From a virus: a stretch of 24,852 nt of DNA. The stretch spans positions 1 through 24,852 of the IMG/VR virus record IMGVR_UViG_3300037119_003952. One strand, given 5' to 3'. Both the position numbers and the translations under genes were made by a program. Shown here in pieces: positions 432 to 15,765 of this stretch (within the stretch, counting starts at the first letter, position 1; each line of letters opens with the position of its first letter). The notes beneath the pieces were generated by a model. It saw nothing but the letters and a program-made list of their open reading frames with translations. It searched no databases and was not told the origin of the DNA.

Positions 432-851
432 TTATTCGGAAGCGTACTTGTCTTCATCGCCAACGTCATCACCAATAGGGTTATCAAATCCATACTTTAC
501 CGCGGTCAGTTTGAAAAGCGGAAGCCCGTACTGTGCGTAATCATCGTTGTCCTCCAAGCCGTCTTCTAGAACCCAATTCCACATACGCACCACATCGTGC
601 ATAAATGAAGAGGAAATGCCGCGCTGGTTCAGGGCCTTCTCGAACCCAAACGCCAAATCGCGCTTTAGTCGCTCCAGGACCGCTTCACGAGTAAATGGAA
701 CGGCTACGTGCTTTCCGACAAACTCCGGCTTTAGATCAACGTCGATCTTCGGTAGGTCGGCCTCTGGCACAAAATCTGCCAAGCGGGCAACATCGCGTCC
801 GTCCATCGACTCACGCTTGTATGTAAGAATTTCTTCCAGCGTCTTCATCAT
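432..851 (-). CDS. Conserved-type phage hypothetical protein (139 aa)
   Basis: The frame is acidic. Its central part has the feel of a conserved phage family (RGISSSFMHDVVRMWNWVLE, followed by DDYAQYGLPLFKLTAVKYGF), but I cannot name a function. The start was chosen at ATG 851: AAGGGA lies five to six bases upstream, while ATG 866 has no such site. The C-terminus is strongly acidic (DDVGDEDKYASE). It is the first gene after the minus-strand TTGACA/TACAGT promoter at 891-918, so it probably heads a secondary leftward transcript that also carries the next two genes. Confidence 0.7.
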   Translation of the reverse strand: MMKTLEEILTYKRESMDGRDVARLADFVPEADLPKIDVDLKPEFVGKHVAVPFTREAVLERLKRDLAFGFEKALNQRGISSSFMHDVVRMWNWVLEDGLEDNDDYAQYGLPLFKLTAVKYGFDNPIGDDVGDEDKYASE

Positions 852-890
852 GCATCCCTTGGCCATCTGGCCGGTTGTTATTCTAACTGG

Positions 891-927: not shown

Positions 928-1458
928 TTATTCCGTGAACATCGTAGCGAGGGCCGTGATGTTGTACTTACGCTTCCCGCCAGACCCACAGGCGGCGAGG
1001 TGTTCGCTCATCGGGGCGCACGAGCATCGGCCGTCGTGGACTGCGATGACGAAGTGATCTTCTCTCCGACGAGGGTAGACTTTCTCAGTCTTACAACGGC
1101 CACGATGCGAGTGTACAGCCGTCTTGACTTCAATGCGCAGTCCTGATGCGGTGGTGAGGTCGGGGCCGTTCCACTCGGCGGATACCGCAGCACGATCGTC
1201 TGGGTGATGGGCGTTCCACCACGCACAGGCGATGTGCTCATTTGCACGGCCGAGTGCGGCGCGCTCATCCACTGGAGCTGTCGGATCCGGTGTGGGATTG
1301 TTGCGGTGTTTCTTGCACTTGGGGCAGAAGTGCCCGTCCCAACGCCGACCCCGCTCATCGCGGTACCGGTACGCTTTCTTACCGGGGCTCAGTTCCGCGC
1401 GGTTACGGATGACAAGAGTACTGCACTTCCTACAGGCTACCAAATTATCGGCGCTCAA
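928..1458 (-). CDS. Zinc-ribbon plus PD-(D/E)XK-type nuclease, TTG start
   Basis: The 176-aa protein appears to have two parts. Residues 9-48 hold two CxxC pairs (C9/C12 and C45/C48) that form a zinc ribbon with a basic loop. Residues 70-115 hold a PD-(D/E)XK-like signature: E74 in a GRANEH helix, then D100 in NGPDL and E110-x-K112 in LRIEVKTAV. Families with this core cut DNA in restriction, repair or junction resolution; which one applies here is not clear. No ATG or GTG exists in the frame near the beginning. TTG at 1458 has GGAGG six bases upstream, so a TTG start is well supported. The gene overlaps the end of the RHH gene by 14 bases, which implies translational coupling. The C-terminal third is Cys/Arg-rich (RGRCKTEK, GRCSCAP). 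Confidence 0.65.
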   Translation of the reverse strand: MSADNLVACRKCSTLVIRNRAELSPGKKAYRYRDERGRRWDGHFCPKCKKHRNNPTPDPTAPVDERAALGRANEHIACAWWNAHHPDDRAAVSAEWNGPDLTTASGLRIEVKTAVHSHRGRCKTEKVYPRRREDHFVIAVHDGRCSCAPMSEHLAACGSGGKRKYNITALATMFTE

Positions 1459-1597
1459 GGTAAGCCTCCACGATCTCGCGAATGATCTGCGAGCGGGCTC
1501 GCTTCTGCTCGTCGGCCATAATCTGTAGTTTACGTATGTGCTCCTCGGTGAGGCAGAAGGTGATGGGGATCTGGCGCAAGGCCTTGGTCTTACTCAT
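1445..1597 (-). CDS. Ribbon-helix-helix (CopG/Arc-type) DNA-binding regulator
   Basis: This 50-aa protein reads as a minimal RHH: an N-terminal basic arm (MSKTKALRQ), a beta-strand IPITFCL, helix A TEEHIRKLQIMADEQ, a turn KRARS and helix B QIIREIVEAYLERR. RHH proteins bind DNA as dimers through the paired beta-strands and often repress their own promoter. The frame is open upstream to 1852, but that extension is low-complexity Gly/Arg, so ATG 1597 is preferred. There is no obvious Shine-Dalgarno before it. It is the first gene of the leftward unit, next to the divergent control region, and overlaps the nuclease gene by 14 bases. Confidence 0.75.
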   Translation of the reverse strand: MSKTKALRQIPITFCLTEEHIRKLQIMADEQKRARSQIIREIVEAYLERR

Positions 1598-1620: not shown

Positions 1621-1676
1621 GGGGAGTCAACCGCGTATAGTGGGTATCCTTCTCTCCCCGCGCATAGGCCGCCTCG

Positions 1677-1758
1677 CCCCCTCGCCCCACCCTCGACAAC
1701 GCCCTCGATCCACGCACCCCGCCCCTATCCCCACATCCGCCCATCTCCTCCCACCCCC
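1677..1758 (-). other. G-run tract in the leftward leader (G-quadruplex potential)
   Basis: The plus strand carries C-runs at 1677-1681, 1685-1688, 1690-1692, 1702-1704, 1717-1720, 1722-1725, 1729-1732, 1740-1742, 1750-1752 and 1754-1758. On the minus strand the last six form consecutive G-runs with loops of 1, 3, 7, 7 and 1 bases, a canonical G-quadruplex pattern. The tract lies between the predicted leftward promoter near 1880 and the RHH start at 1597, so it would be part of an untranslated mRNA leader. Confidence 0.5.
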
Positions 1759-1877
1759 ATCGTTTAGCCCTAAGCCCTTCCCCTTTCTCGCGATATGACG
1801 TACCACAGCCCATCAGCCCGGGGGATTCGGCAAGTTTGTAGGTAATAGTCATGGGGCAATACTGACACCTTACACCG

Positions 1878-1883
1878 ATTATA
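1878..1883 (-). promoter_or_regulatory. Candidate leftward early promoter -10 (TATAAT)
   Basis: A perfect TATAAT on the minus strand sits five bases outside the conserved TTACGAAAAACAATAATAA block of the left repeat arm. The mirror arm has a TATAAT six bases from the same block. No TTGACA lies at the usual distance, so the conserved block may replace the -35 as an activator or alternative sigma-factor site. It would give a leader of about 270 bases before the RHH gene. Confidence 0.5.
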
Positions 1884-1888
1884 ATAAC

Positions 1889-1965
1889 TTATTATTGTTT
1901 TTCGTAACCCTCCAACCCTGTTACGGCAAGGGGTTATGCCTAATTTTGGGGCATTATTATTCTTA
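1889..1965 (-). repeat. Left 77-bp arm of large inverted repeat
   Basis: Read on the minus strand, this arm starts with TAAGAATAATAATGCCCC (18 bases) and ends with TTACGAAAAACAATAATAA (19 bases), separated by exactly 40 bases. The right arm at 2142-2218 has the same two blocks without mismatch and the same 40-base spacing. In between, the arms share TAACCC, TTGCC and AACAG at equal offsets. Both arms are symmetric about position 2053.5. Confidence 0.9.
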
Positions 1966-2141
1966 TGAGCTAGAGAGACCCGGAGACGGGGTGACAGGTG
2001 AGGAAGTGAATATCTATAAATAATGTAAGAACTATATATTGAGATTTGTTTTTATAGGTTTATATGGACTCACTCTTGATTGATTTTGAAAATTGATACC
2101 TCACTTTCACAATATCTACCTCTCTCCCTCTTTCTAGGGTG
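1966..2141. other. Non-coding centre of the inverted repeat
   Basis: These 176 bases between the two arms carry no credible gene. Weak mirror symmetry continues: CTAGA followed by an AGA occurs four bases inside each arm (near 1970 and near 2135), and GTGAGG/CCTCAC with AGTGA/TCACTT occur on both sides. The middle (about 2010-2095) is strongly AT-rich with several TATA-like strings, as in an easily melted replication origin or a shared activator region. Confidence 0.5.
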
Positions 2142-2218
2142 TAAGAATAATAATGCCCCTTTTTCCAACGTAACCCATTGCCCCAACAGCGCGGAGGCAT
2201 TACGAAAAACAATAATAA
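2142..2218 (+). repeat. Right 77-bp arm of large inverted repeat
   Basis: This arm carries TAAGAATAATAATGCCCC at 2142-2159 and TTACGAAAAACAATAATAA at 2200-2218, the mirror image of 1889-1965. The 40-base interior is only partly conserved, which argues that the two end blocks are under selection as protein-binding sites. The arm points toward the first rightward gene at 2285. Confidence 0.9.
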
Positions 2219-2224
2219 ATTAAA

Positions 2225-2230
2225 TATAAT
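2225..2230 (+). promoter_or_regulatory. Candidate rightward early promoter -10 (TATAAT)
   Basis: A perfect TATAAT lies six bases after the right repeat arm, 55 bases before the first rightward gene. As on the left side, no consensus -35 is present, while the conserved TTACGA... block occupies the -35 region. The remaining leader to 2284 is AT-rich with no hairpin that I can see. Confidence 0.5.
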
Positions 2231-2284
2231 TCTTCTAAGACCTCCACCCCTTTACTTTTAATAAACATAAACATACTAAGAGAT

Positions 2285-2515
2285 ATGAACCCTACCCAAT
2301 TCAGCATCTTGAACATCGTGTCCAAGTGGAGCGATGGTGTGTTGCTATCTGTTATCAAAAACCGAATCCGCCAACCCAATCACGTCTTCGATCCCGCGTT
2401 GCGTAGCCTTGTGGGCGCGGCTCTGCTGACGAAGACAACCACGCCTCGTGGAGCTGCGATCATCGCCATCACTGAGGCTGGGCAGTTGGCCCTGGCGCAG
2501 GGGCGCACGTGGTAA
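2285..2515 (+). CDS. Small winged-helix protein (76 aa)
   Basis: The whole protein looks like one winged-helix module: SILNIVSKWSDGVLLSVIKN at residues 7-26, then a recognition-helix region VFDPALRSLVGAALL and a beta-wing with GAAIIAITEAG. The spacing of the helix, V-[LI]-x-N-R and wing matches the module in the next gene and at the end of the DUF3987 protein (14413-15765). It is the first gene of the rightward unit, directly after the mirror-image control region, so a role as DNA-binding regulator is likely but inferred. The Shine-Dalgarno is weak (AAGAGAT). Its 3' end overlaps the next gene by seven bases. Confidence 0.65.
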   Translation: MNPTQFSILNIVSKWSDGVLLSVIKNRIRQPNHVFDPALRSLVGAALLTKTTTPRGAAIIAITEAGQLALAQGRTW

Positions 2516-2826
2516 CGCCGAAGCCTTGCCCTTTTTGTGGGCACTCGCAACTTGCTCGGAACAAACGCACCAGTGTTGTGCGCCCCAAGCCGGTGCCGGA
2601 GACCGAGGAGCGGGCTAAAATCCTACGGCACCTCACCCGGGCAGGCAGCGAAGGCCTCCTCCGTACGGTCCTTATGAACCGTATGAAGATGGACAAATCC
2701 CGCGTCAATGGCTACATCCTGCAATTTGTCGTGGAGGAGCTTATCGATATTTGCCCAACCGCGAATGGGTCTACTCGCCTGTACATCCGTGCCTCGGGTT
2801 ATCCACTTCCTCCCGAAAAGACATGA
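2509..2826 (+). CDS. Half zinc-ribbon plus winged-helix protein (105 aa)
   Basis: The start is GTG 2509, overlapping the previous gene. The N-terminus carries CPFCGH (residues 7-12), like the first half of a Lar-type zinc ribbon, but no second Cys pair follows. After a Pro/basic linker, residues 36-93 form a winged-helix domain very like the C-terminus of the DUF3987 replication protein: both share EG-L/I-LR-T/S-VL-x-NR and end in a T-R-L-Y-I strand. This suggests a regulator that recognises the same DNA or partner as the replication protein. Function is inferred; the coding call is strong because the protein similarity runs in frame. Confidence 0.7.
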   Translation: MVTPKPCPFCGHSQLARNKRTSVVRPKPVPETEERAKILRHLTRAGSEGLLRTVLMNRMKMDKSRVNGYILQFVVEELIDICPTANGSTRLYIRASGYPLPPEKT

Positions 2827-5133: not shown

Positions 5134-5891
5134 CCACTGAAAACCAACAGACCCCGTTCGCGATCCGCTCGCGTTGGAATAACGAAACGATTGTCTATCA
5201 GGCGAAGGAGGCGACCACCCTCGGCACTGCCATGCGTGAGGCTGCCCTGTGTGGGGCTAACCTGTATGAGGCTGACCTGCGTGAGGCTTACCTGCGTGGG
5301 GCTGACCTGCGTGGGGCTGACCTGCGTGAGGCTAACCTGCGTGAGGCTTACCTGCGTGGGGCTAACCTGTCTGGGGCTAACCTGTCTGGGGCTAACCTGT
5401 ATGGGGCTAACCTGTATGGGGCTGACCTGTCTGGGGCTAACCTGTATGGGGCTAACCTGTCTGGGGCTAACCTGTATGGGGCTAACCTGCGTGGGGCTGA
5501 CCTGTGTGGGGCTGACCTGCGTGGGGCTGACCTGCGTGAGGCTAACCTGTGTGGGGCTAAGAACGCGGAAATGGTCATTGCGCAGACCCGCATCCTGCCC
5601 GAAGGCGCTTTGATTGGGTGGAAGAAGTGCAAGGGTGGTGTGATCGTCAAGCTCCGCATTCCCGAAGTAGCGAAACGCTCGCACGCCTTCGGACGCAAGT
5701 GCCGGGCTGAATTTGCGGAGGTGCTAGAAGTCATCGGAGAGGGCGAAGCAATCAGCATGCACGACGGCGAGACGAGATATGTGGTCGGGGAGACGGTGCG
5801 TCCTGACCGTTTTAGCGAAGACTGGCAGGATGAATGCGCCCCCGGCATTCACTTCTACATCACCAAGGCCGAAGCGGAGGCGCACTCGTGA
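5130..5891 (+). CDS. Pentapeptide-repeat protein with DUF5758-type C-terminus
   Basis: The 253-aa protein has three parts. Residues 1-37 are a short N-terminal region. Residues 38-142 hold 21 consecutive A-(N/D/Y)-L-x-x pentapeptides, which fold as a right-handed quadrilateral beta-helix. Residues about 143-253 form a globular domain with [20 protein letters not shown] and ending [15 protein letters not shown], a type that I associate with DUF5758. Some pentapeptide proteins mimic DNA (Qnr/MfpA bind gyrase), but here the function is unknown. GGAG lies eight bases before ATG 5130, which overlaps the previous stop. The repeats are nearly identical at DNA level, so copy number may vary. Confidence 0.85.
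5241..5555 (+). repeat. Tandem 15-bp repeats encoding 21 pentapeptides
   Basis: Units of the form GGGGCTAACCTGTAT and close variants (GCTGACCTGCGTGAG) repeat without interruption. Variation is limited mostly to the second codon (AAC/GAC/TAC) and the last two codons. Because the unit is a multiple of three and lacks stops in several frames, false long frames appear on both strands. Confidence 0.9.
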
Positions 5892-13359: not shown

Positions 13360-13653
13360 ATGCACCACGTACTGCTTATCCGTGTGCTTCCGAAGCAGGA
13401 GGCCGAGATATTTCGCCAACACCCGCGCCTCGCCTACGACCGCGCACTTCGCCCCGTGTCCTACTTCTCTGCCGGAAAGAGGCTGCGCGACCCAGCGGCA
13501 CGGTACACGGATCGCGCCAACAAAATGGTGAAGGCCAAGGACCGGTGCGTTCACAATATGTCGACGTGTGCCGCACAGATCATGACCGCGCAGATCGCTG
13601 GGCAACTGGACGAGGGTCTGGCCGAATCCCTGCTGTCAGCGTTGATGGCATGA
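13360..13653 (+). CDS. Hypothetical protein (97 aa)
   Basis: GGAGGA lies about nine bases before ATG 13360. The protein begins MHHVLLIRVLPKQEAEIFRQ and has a basic helical centre (DRANKMVKAKDRC) and a C-terminal helix (AQIAGQLDEGLAESLLSALM). It is sandwiched between the helicase and the primase and overlaps the latter by ATGA, so it may be a replisome accessory, but no family was recognised. Confidence 0.6.
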   Translation: MHHVLLIRVLPKQEAEIFRQHPRLAYDRALRPVSYFSAGKRLRDPAARYTDRANKMVKAKDRCVHNMSTCAAQIMTAQIAGQLDEGLAESLLSALMA

Positions 13654-14492
13654 TCGCGGATCGCAACGCCGAAGTCCTGCGGCTCGCCAATCTGGGCTTC
13701 CATCTCGTTCCCTGGAAAGGGCGCAAGCATGTCACTGACGAATCCCGACCACTTGTTGCTGGCTTCCTTGGAGAAGGATCTGCCCGATCCGCCGGCTCCG
13801 TGGCTGCATTCACACGAATATATCCGGCTGCCGACTGGGCGTGTGTACCTGAGAGAGGGATCGCGCTGGATCTTGATAGAAAATCCGGGCGAGACGGTGT
13901 TGCAGCGCTTCAAGAAATTGTCGCAGAGTTTTCCGACTGGAGCACCTTCACCCGTGACTGCCCCATCACCGAAACCAAGTCCGGTGGTCTGCATATCTGG
14001 TTTAGACAGCCAGATGGAGGAGACATCACGTGCTGCGGAAGCATTGCTCCGGGAGTTGAGTTCAAGTCTCGAACGGGATCCGTCCACGTCCCTCCGTCCT
14101 TTGGATACCGGGCAGTGGTGCCTCTCCGAGCTGAGTCGGAGTTGCCGCGACTTCCTGTGGAAATTGCAGATCGTTGCCGCCAAACGAAGAGAGGCGCAGC
14201 GAACGACTACCGGGCTCGCTCCTTTGGGGACGGCGAACGGAGGCTGATGTTGTGTTCGGTAGCCGGAAAGGCACGATCTGCGTTAGCCCTTAACGCTACG
14301 GAGCTGTTCGCCCTACTGACCGCCGTTCGTGATGAGCGTTGCGATAATCCCGAAACCTTTACGGACGAAGAAGTTGCCGGCATAGCCCGTGACTTCGCCA
14401 AGAAAGCTGCCGATGACATCGACGCCCTCGCCCTCGCCGGAGATCAAACCGCTGCTGCCGTCGTCTCTCTGTTCAGTCGAGCCCGGCGATGA
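13650..14492 (+). CDS. PrimPol (bifunctional primase/polymerase N-terminal type)
   Basis: This 280-aa protein matches the archaeo-eukaryotic primase superfamily prim-pol domain. An N-terminal GFHLVPWKG strand precedes catalytic DLD (residues 74-76) in ERGIALDLD. SGGLHIWF follows with H115, then GVEFKSRTGSVHVPPS (136-150), where E137 and K139 stand in for the third acidic motif. It would make primers for the phage polymerase. The C-terminal third (ALNATELFALLTAV, EEVAGIARDFAKKAA) resembles a PriCT-like helical domain. Usually this domain is fused to a helicase; here the helicase-like part is a separate gene overlapping by 80 bases. Confidence 0.85.
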   Translation: MIADRNAEVLRLANLGFHLVPWKGRKHVTDESRPLVAGFLGEGSARSAGSVAAFTRIYPAADWACVPERGIALDLDRKSGRDGVAALQEIVAEFSDWSTFTRDCPITETKSGGLHIWFRQPDGGDITCCGSIAPGVEFKSRTGSVHVPPSFGYRAVVPLRAESELPRLPVEIADRCRQTKRGAANDYRARSFGDGERRLMLCSVAGKARSALALNATELFALLTAVRDERCDNPETFTDEEVAGIARDFAKKAADDIDALALAGDQTAAAVVSLFSRARR

Positions 14493-15765
14493 CGAACCGA
14501 TCGTCGTGGTAGAGGAGCAGACGTTCGATGAGCAGCTAGGCGACCCTACGATTCTCCGCGCCACACCCTTGCTGGCTGCGTGGCAGGATTGGGCGAACGC
14601 ATGTTCTCATAGGCGTCAACCTTTCTTGGCAATGCTGTCAGCTATCACTACGTTCGGCTGCATCATGGGCCGCAACTACCGTGGGCCAACCGGCGCTCTC
14701 GGTAATCTGTACACCGTGGCCCTCGCAGATTCCACGATGGGCAAGGACATGCCCCGCCAGATGGGCAAGATGCTTTTGGAGAAGGTCGGGCGAGGGATGG
14801 CGATCGGTGCCGACACGATGGCTTCCGAGGCCGGCATGCAGCGTGAGATGCAGGAGCAACCTGAGATCGTCTGGTACTTGGACGAGCTGGGCGGTATGCT
14901 GCGGGACTGGCACGCAACAGCCTGCCCCTCGTACAAGCTGGCCATCCGCGATCTGTGGCTGAAGACCAGCAACGGCGAACGTTACTCGGGCAAGAGCCTG
15001 AAGGACGCGAAGGAACAGATCGTCATCGAGAACCCGTACCCGTGCATCTACGCCACGGCCCAGCCGGATATGTTCTGGCCTTACGCGGACAAGGAGATGA
15101 TCTCCTCCGGCTTCCTGGGGCGATGCCTCGTGTTTGAGGGTCAGATCCTTGAGAAGGCCCAGTACGGTCGGAAGATCCTGACGCGCGAGGAGTCGATGCC
15201 GAAGCTGCTGACGGAGCAGATCATCGCCGCCGCCAAGCAGACGCGCAAGACTGGGGCTGTACTCACCAACACCCTCGCCACGATCCACGTCCCCCTCGCT
15301 GACAAGGATGCCGAGGCTGCTGATGCGGAGGTCCATGACTTCTGCGAGGATGCCCGCTACCTGCGTTACCACGGCGAGAAGACGGAGGCGATCCTCGCGG
15401 GCCGGTCGTGGGAGCGGATGCACAAGTTGGCTCTGGTTCACGCGTGGTCTGCCGACCCCTGTAACCCGAAGATCACCGCCGAGTCCATCCATTGGGCGTG
15501 GCGTCTGGTCCAGATGAGTAACGGCGTAGTCACGCGCGGGCTCCGCGACTCGGGTGGCACGAGCGACTTCGAGAAGAAATACAACAGCGTCCTGAAGCAC
15601 ATCGCCCGCGCACAGAACGAGGGCATTCTCCGCAGCGTGCTGCTGAATCGCTGCAAGTTCGAGCAGGCCAAGTTCGATGACATCATCAACCAGCTCGTCA
15701 GTGGAGGCCGGATCCGCCGGGCTGCGGCGGCGACTGGGGCTACCCGACTCTACATCATCTCTTGA
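14413..15765 (+). CDS. DUF3987-like ATPase/helicase with C-terminal winged helix
   Basis: The 450-aa protein is of the DUF3987 type, often the helicase partner of PrimPol. After a Pro/Ser-rich start, the core has LAAWQDWANACSHRR, a divergent P-loop VALADSTMGKDMPRQ (GKD in place of GKS/T), a Walker B-like IVWYLDELGG and a later YPCIYATAQPDMFW strand region. The last 58 residues are a winged helix (EGILRSVLLNRCKFEQ ... TRLYI) homologous to those encoded at 2285 and 2509. ATG 14413 was chosen because AAGAAAG precedes it; GTG 14389 is an alternative. The gene overlaps the PrimPol gene in the +1 frame. Confidence 0.8.
   Translation: MTSTPSPSPEIKPLLPSSLCSVEPGDDEPIVVVEEQTFDEQLGDPTILRATPLLAAWQDWANACSHRRQPFLAMLSAITTFGCIMGRNYRGPTGALGNLYTVALADSTMGKDMPRQMGKMLLEKVGRGMAIGADTMASEAGMQREMQEQPEIVWYLDELGGMLRDWHATACPSYKLAIRDLWLKTSNGERYSGKSLKDAKEQIVIENPYPCIYATAQPDMFWPYADKEMISSGFLGRCLVFEGQILEKAQYGRKILTREESMPKLLTEQIIAAAKQTRKTGAVLTNTLATIHVPLADKDAEAADAEVHDFCEDARYLRYHGEKTEAILAGRSWERMHKLALVHAWSADPCNPKITAESIHWAWRLVQMSNGVVTRGLRDSGGTSDFEKKYNSVLKHIARAQNEGILRSVLLNRCKFEQAKFDDIINQLVSGGRIRRAAAATGATRLYIIS

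Follow-up and report, generated by a model that had tools for sequence, protein, structure and literature searches.

The DNA studied was a virus contig of 24,852 nucleotides (IMG/VR record IMGVR_UViG_3300037119_003952, positions 1 to 24,852), the whole of which was analysed and is referred to below as the window. Toward one end of the window, two sets of genes diverge from an intervening region that carries a large inverted repeat. The first leftward gene (1445-1597, minus strand) encodes a ribbon-helix-helix protein of the CopG type (PF01402, E 2.6e-5, above the curated cutoff), with a putative start at 1597 in a frame that is open to 1852. The first rightward gene (2285-2515, plus strand) encodes a winged-helix protein of 76 amino acids and overlaps by 7 nt the next gene (2509-2826, plus strand), which encodes a winged-helix protein of 105 amino acids. 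The other genes of the rightward unit form a replication module and encode a Sak4-like AAA protein, a DEAD-type helicase, a Prim-Pol primase/polymerase (13545-14492, plus strand; PF09250, E 2.4e-10), a DUF3987 replicative helicase (14389-15765, plus strand; PF13148, E 8.8e-11; phrog_3022 DNA primase, E 2e-44), a DUF2800 nuclease, a family-A DNA polymerase and RusA. Farther to the left, an orphan protein of 176 amino acids (928-1458, minus strand) matched no family, showed by eye a D...ExK-like motif and is possibly a PD-(D/E)XK nuclease. Large Serratia and Klebsiella phages encode a hypothetical protein (phrog_5706) to which the product of 432-866 (minus strand) showed about 60% identity; kinship with those phages was considered and dropped, since this single gene and nothing else was shared, and the gene has likely been exchanged with them.

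The inverted repeat contains two perfectly matched blocks in each arm. Block A (19 bp, TTACGAAAAACAATAATAA) occupies 1889-1907 on the minus strand and is matched exactly at 2200-2218 on the plus strand, while block B (18 bp, TAAGAATAATAATGCCCC) occupies 1948-1965 on the minus strand and is matched exactly at 2142-2159 on the plus strand. Blocks A and B are 40 bp apart in both arms, both pairs have their dyad centre at 2053.5, and the short motifs TAACCC, TTGCC and AACAG recur at equal offsets on the two sides. All of these features had been described in the initial annotation, and its coordinates, block lengths, spacing and centre proved exact when rechecked, as the partial interior matches proved reproducible. 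The dyad is real and lies far beyond chance expectation. Dinucleotide shuffles of 1600-2500 served as the reference. In 1000 shuffles, perfect inverted repeats had a mean longest length of 10.3 bp and never exceeded 18 bp, compared with 19 bp in the region itself; in 60 shuffles, the best 90-nt dyad arm averaged 39.4 matches and reached at most 45, compared with 66 of 90 positions in the region. Folding and self-alignment of the region, both of which had been proposed as checks, gave concordant results: the single-strand DNA fold of 1880-2230 was -68.2 kcal/mol versus -28.1 +/- 3.9 for shuffled DNA (z -10.2), and gapped alignment of the whole dyad halves scored 58 versus a shuffle maximum of 19. 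Apart from the two block pairs, no inverted repeats of such length in the window had arms separated by less than 7 kb, no further copy of block A was found in the contig at up to 3 mismatches, and a sliding scan of the window found no mirror structure other than the dyad that has two copies on each side.

The strength of this fold (z about -10) raises the possibility that the dyad is extruded as a hairpin or cruciform, in the manner of plasmid pRN1, whose type of Prim-Pol helicase uses a stem-loop origin (PMC4234260). We consider such a structure improbable, given that the copies of block B are 176 nt apart, that the core is largely unpaired and that perfect blocks combined with a diverged interior are better explained by duplicated sites than by a compensated stem. 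A protelomerase site was also considered and was dropped because the centre of the dyad is not palindromic.

Blocks A and B are themselves related through a shared 11-mer core. Thus, in the 24.9 kb the consensus AA[C/G]AATAATAA had exactly 4 occurrences, one in each block, in the form AACAATAATAA at 1889-1899 (minus strand) and 2208-2218 (plus strand) and in the form AAGAATAATAA at 1954-1964 (minus strand) and 2143-2153 (plus strand), the copies within an arm being 65 bp apart. These four sites are the only occurrences of AANAATAATAA in the contig, two on either side in mirror orientation, and AATAATAA is itself rare in the contig. Likeness between the arms extended beyond the blocks. In the stretch between blocks A and B, 21 of 40 positions matched between arms without gaps (P 1.3e-4), and the gapped alignment of this stretch scored 15 versus a shuffle maximum of 11. 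Since this stretch was significantly alike, the arms are best described as diverged copies of one module rather than as isolated sites. By gapped alignment, the left arm (1877-1984, minus strand) reads leftward and the right arm (2123-2231, plus strand) reads rightward, i.e., both read outward; alignment of the innermost 69 bp and of the outer flanks from arm to arm was without significance, so that the homology is limited inward at about 1984 and 2123 and outward by a TATAAT on each side. The dyad is accordingly two diverged inverted copies of a module of about 110 bp, larger than first noted. Only blocks A and B have been kept perfectly, the remainder of the duplication being about 50% diverged. 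The earlier suggestion that the blocks are selected sites for protein binding is plausible in light of this difference, with the amendment that the stretch between blocks A and B is also significantly alike; blocks A and B are therefore referred to below as putative binding sites.

The TATAAT at which each arm ends is a putative -10 element, at 1878-1883 (minus strand) for a leftward promoter and at 2225-2230 (plus strand) for a rightward promoter. TATAAT is rare in the contig, with five occurrences in all, two on the minus strand and three on the plus strand. The two at the dyad occupy mirror positions to within 1 bp, and that on the right lies 55 bp before the ATG at 2285. Because the repeated unit ends at the -10 element, the arm module is most simply read as a promoter preceded by its control sites, with one copy serving each direction. 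No -35 element resembling TTGACA was found at a spacing of 16-18 bp, the nearest hexamer being TTACGA at 18 and 19 bp, and neither TATAAT site was listed by the promoter scan. Activator-dependent promoters may be without a consensus -35 element, and its absence here consequently does not exclude promoters but would fit promoters that depend on a regulator. The proposal made at the outset that the region is a bidirectional promoter is well supported by the TATAAT at the end of both arms and by the divergent layout of the genes, the missing -35 consensus being a point against it, and the case for a co-regulated pair of divergent early promoters, as judged from the sequence, is strong.

Several other observations concern the leftward transcript and its first gene. 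The leader RNA showed no structure beyond that of shuffles (z +2.3). The untranslated leader at 1640-1800 (minus strand) is extremely G-rich, most strongly at 1717-1758, with runs that fit a G-quadruplex, and has both the top G4Hunter score and the strongest GC skew in the contig; it could favour an R-loop beside the AT-rich core of the dyad. Short ATGTAG repeats, 9 bp apart, were noted at 1598-1625, directly upstream of the ribbon-helix-helix gene, and are a possible autoregulatory operator of this gene.

The outward direction of the apparent promoters bears on whether the repeats might instead be recombination sites that allow the interior to be inverted, as happens in phase switches of bacteria. 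The 176-292 bp enclosed by the inverted repeats of 18-19 bp is a typical size for invertible promoters. However, since the promoters appear to sit in the arms and to point outward on both sides, flipping would change nothing; moreover, the repeats are two blocks within a diverged duplication, and neither a tyrosine nor a serine recombinase was found among the proteins of the contig, which is probably a fragment. An invertible promoter thus seems very improbable.

The two small winged-helix proteins encoded beside the dyad are related to the replicative helicase. The 105-residue protein was 43% identical to the last 56 residues of the DUF3987 helicase of the phage (E about 1e-10). Its predicted fold was helix-helix-helix-strand-strand (mean pLDDT 68), and the model resembled winged helices of the Fur and MarR types, with none of the matches below E 0.01. 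By homology to this modelled protein, the helicase carries a C-terminal winged-helix domain, encoded at 15565-15762, that is predicted to bind DNA. A profile made from the helicase C terminus and the 105-residue protein identified the 76-residue protein as a more distant paralog (E 0.0011, next match 0.6) and as the sole further member in the six frames of the contig; compared with HTH_27, the 76-residue protein reached an E value of only 0.065. Prediction of the whole helicase structure without an alignment gave a pLDDT of 37 and was discarded as unusable. In the literature, the DUF3987 family is predicted to comprise helicases of mobile elements, and primase-helicases of this type have been proposed to recognise origins through a C-terminal winged helix (PMC5862659).

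The centre of the dyad is AT-rich, as the initial annotation had stated. The core (2004-2103), a candidate melting region, is 76% A+T over 100 bp and 82% over 60 bp (2007-2066), and its A+T content is the highest in the contig for lengths of 60-330 bp, the best value elsewhere being 59% over 100 bp. The further suggestion that the region is also the replication origin met with mixed evidence. Cumulative GC skew, one of the checks proposed for an origin, had its minimum at 5170 and not at 2053, a result that gives an origin at the dyad no support. The DUF3987 gene is 12.3 kb away, with the dyad upstream of it, and no mirror structure was found 3' of this gene in the window. The other side of the balance consists of the winged-helix paralogs that adjoin the dyad and of an analogy to mirror iterons beside homologous helicases, described below; from this analogy, there is about an even chance that the dyad doubles as an origin. 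It may alternatively be that the region contains divergent promoters and operators only and that the origin is elsewhere, possibly in a part of the genome outside the contig. The twin promoter anatomy, the minimum of skew at 5170 and the status of the contig as a stand-alone IMG/VR record, probably a fragment, agree with this possibility, whereas a core of 82% A+T is not needed between a pair of promoters and the adjoining genes copy a DNA-binding domain that belongs to replication. We judge a region with promoters and operators only to be not far short of an even chance.

Searches for the region in other genomes were largely negative, and searches of Rfam and for tRNA produced no match. Close relatives of the contig were not found in INPHARED, PLSDB, IMG/VR or GTDB genomes, no homolog of the region was found in phage and plasmid collections, and relatives recognized by the polymerase, the helicase, the phrog_5706-like protein or a winged helix were at best about 30% identical, none of them with the region. 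A search of phage genomes for the block sequence had been suggested as a check. Exact scanning of IMG/VR with the 19-mer gave 12 matches, all in contigs of 33-39% GC; because these contigs are AT-rich and none contained a dyad or block B, the matches were taken as chance. The 18-mer of block B had no match in IMG/VR. These results also bear on the idea that the repeat is a decayed, MITE-like mobile element inserted between genes, for which the long, imperfect terminal inverted repeats around some 180 bp could be cited. Contrary to this idea, there was no second copy in the contig and no match in the phage or plasmid collections, promoter elements are present at the ends, and perfect blocks would be unexpected in a decayed element of a coding-dense phage; we regard it as highly unlikely.

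Comparable architecture without the same sequence was noted in distant phages. In those that carry a DUF3987 helicase (25-27% identity) or a VapE-type helicase, the sequence just 3' of the helicase gene often contained mirror iterons, which usually had an AT-rich core between them. Thus, two Rhizobiales phages (about 26% identity), a Sinorhizobium and a Rhizobium phage (L016, 13228-13500; L018, 13237-13500), have mirror TTGGAATT sites on both sides of an AT-rich core immediately after the DUF3987 primase-helicase gene; these sites are conserved between the two phages, and the regions are likely unannotated replication origins. Of 30 relatives from IMG/VR, a subset (including L114, L120-L122, L124, L131 and L132) also had mirror repeats beyond those of shuffles after the helicase gene, and repeats above all shuffles followed the VapE-type helicase in 24 of 51 loci of distant polymerase-A phages, these loci being partly redundant. 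Iterons of the latter phages were of the TGTCAACA, ATGTCCAT and GCAATG types (at about 14430-14650 in L048, L051, L054 and L057, at 16170-16304 in L061 and at 15331-15443 in L076); those of L051 lie between the VapE-type helicase gene and the next gene. In L016-L020, no free-standing protein paralogous to the helicase winged helix was found. In L111 (9772-10464) and L112 (11903-12595), the winged-helix domain of the helicase has been reused at the C terminus of a second protein, of 231 amino acids, near the helicase.

The matching layout next to homologous helicases of distant phages, together with the AT-rich core between mirror sites and the winged-helix paralogs adjoining the dyad, would agree with a region that is primarily a replication origin of the phage-inducible-island type, bound by the helicase winged helix and with only incidental promoter activity. 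Such an origin would not by itself explain why homology between the arms stops exactly at TATAAT; in addition, the dyad is not 3' of the helicase gene, the sites are long with only two per arm, and GC skew provides no support. A region of this kind is a serious possibility, but one to which we assign somewhat less than an even chance.

The explanation that we favour, and consider reasonably probable, is a divergent early control region with twin outward promoters, four sites, winged-helix proteins as binders and possibly an origin; the two readings that take the region as an origin or as promoters only overlap with it. The leftward promoter would drive the ribbon-helix-helix operon and the rightward promoter the winged-helix and replication operon, with block A over the zone from -37 to -19 of each promoter and block B some 80-95 bp upstream of each start. 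If one DNA-binding protein acts on all four sites, both operons would be on or off together, and the region probably switches on both early gene sets. As far as can be judged from sequence relationships, the blocks are probably bound by winged-helix proteins, the likeliest candidates being the two small proteins and the related winged helix of the helicase, with the ribbon-helix-helix protein less likely. With about an even chance, the AT-rich core would melt between its flanking sites and the helicase would load by way of its C-terminal winged helix, in which case the small winged-helix copies may tune or compete for the sites and so link early transcription to initiation. A more specific scheme, in which the region is a dual origin and early promoter and the origin-binding winged helix of the helicase was copied into two free-standing proteins that regulate transcription and restrain initiation at these mirror sites, so that a single symmetric element would couple early transcription to the start of replication, is rather unlikely.

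To our knowledge, most origins have yet to be mapped in phages whose helicase is of the Prim-Pol/DUF3987 or VapE type. Judging from the comparison with distant phages, mirror iterons that surround an AT-rich core seem to be common next to helicases of the DUF3987 and VapE types. The window may hold an unusual variant, in which the mirror structure has been moved to, or merged with, a divergent early promoter. Copies of the helicase DNA-binding domain beside the dyad would constitute a testable link between early gene control and the start of replication.

Among known systems, the origins of phage-inducible chromosomal islands (PICIs) consist of two sets of iterons that flank an AT-rich region, a layout called unique to phage-inducible islands in 2018 (PMC6092414). 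In agreement with SaPI and Gram-negative PICI origins, in which mirror sets of repeated sites flank such a region, AANAATAATAA occurs twice on each side of a core of up to 82% A+T, and the replication helicase has a C-terminal winged-helix domain. PICI origins differ in having tandem short iterons, as opposed to two blocks of 18-19 bp per side, 40 bp apart, and in being immediately 3' of the helicase gene, as opposed to 12.3 kb upstream of it between divergent operons; in addition, each arm of the dyad ends in a putative promoter -10 element. Since two defining features (position and tandem iterons) fail, the dyad was not classed as a PICI-type origin. Sinorhizobium phage AP-16-3 and Rhizobium phage RHph_TM3_3_14B resemble the window in having a homologous helicase (about 26% identity), mirror iterons and an AT-rich core, but their iteron, TTGGAATT, is unrelated in sequence and directly follows the helicase gene. 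Plasmid pRN1, with its orf56 repressor and orf904 Prim-Pol helicase, has in common with the window a Prim-Pol and a helicase with a C-terminal winged helix as well as a small repressor gene at the control region, whereas its origin, which lies 3' of the replication gene, is a stem-loop of 100 nt and the primase and helicase are separate proteins only in the phage. Early operators of temperate phages, of the lambda PR/PRM or PL type, are similar in that common operator sites lie between divergent promoters with regulator genes on both sides. Next to the dyad, however, no cI/cro-type HTH repressor gene was detected, its neighbours being the ribbon-helix-helix and winged-helix genes, and the operators are mirror duplicates, both promoters having the same pair of blocks. 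By analogy with these systems, the region would appear to work like a divergent operator-promoter while resembling an origin of the PICI type.
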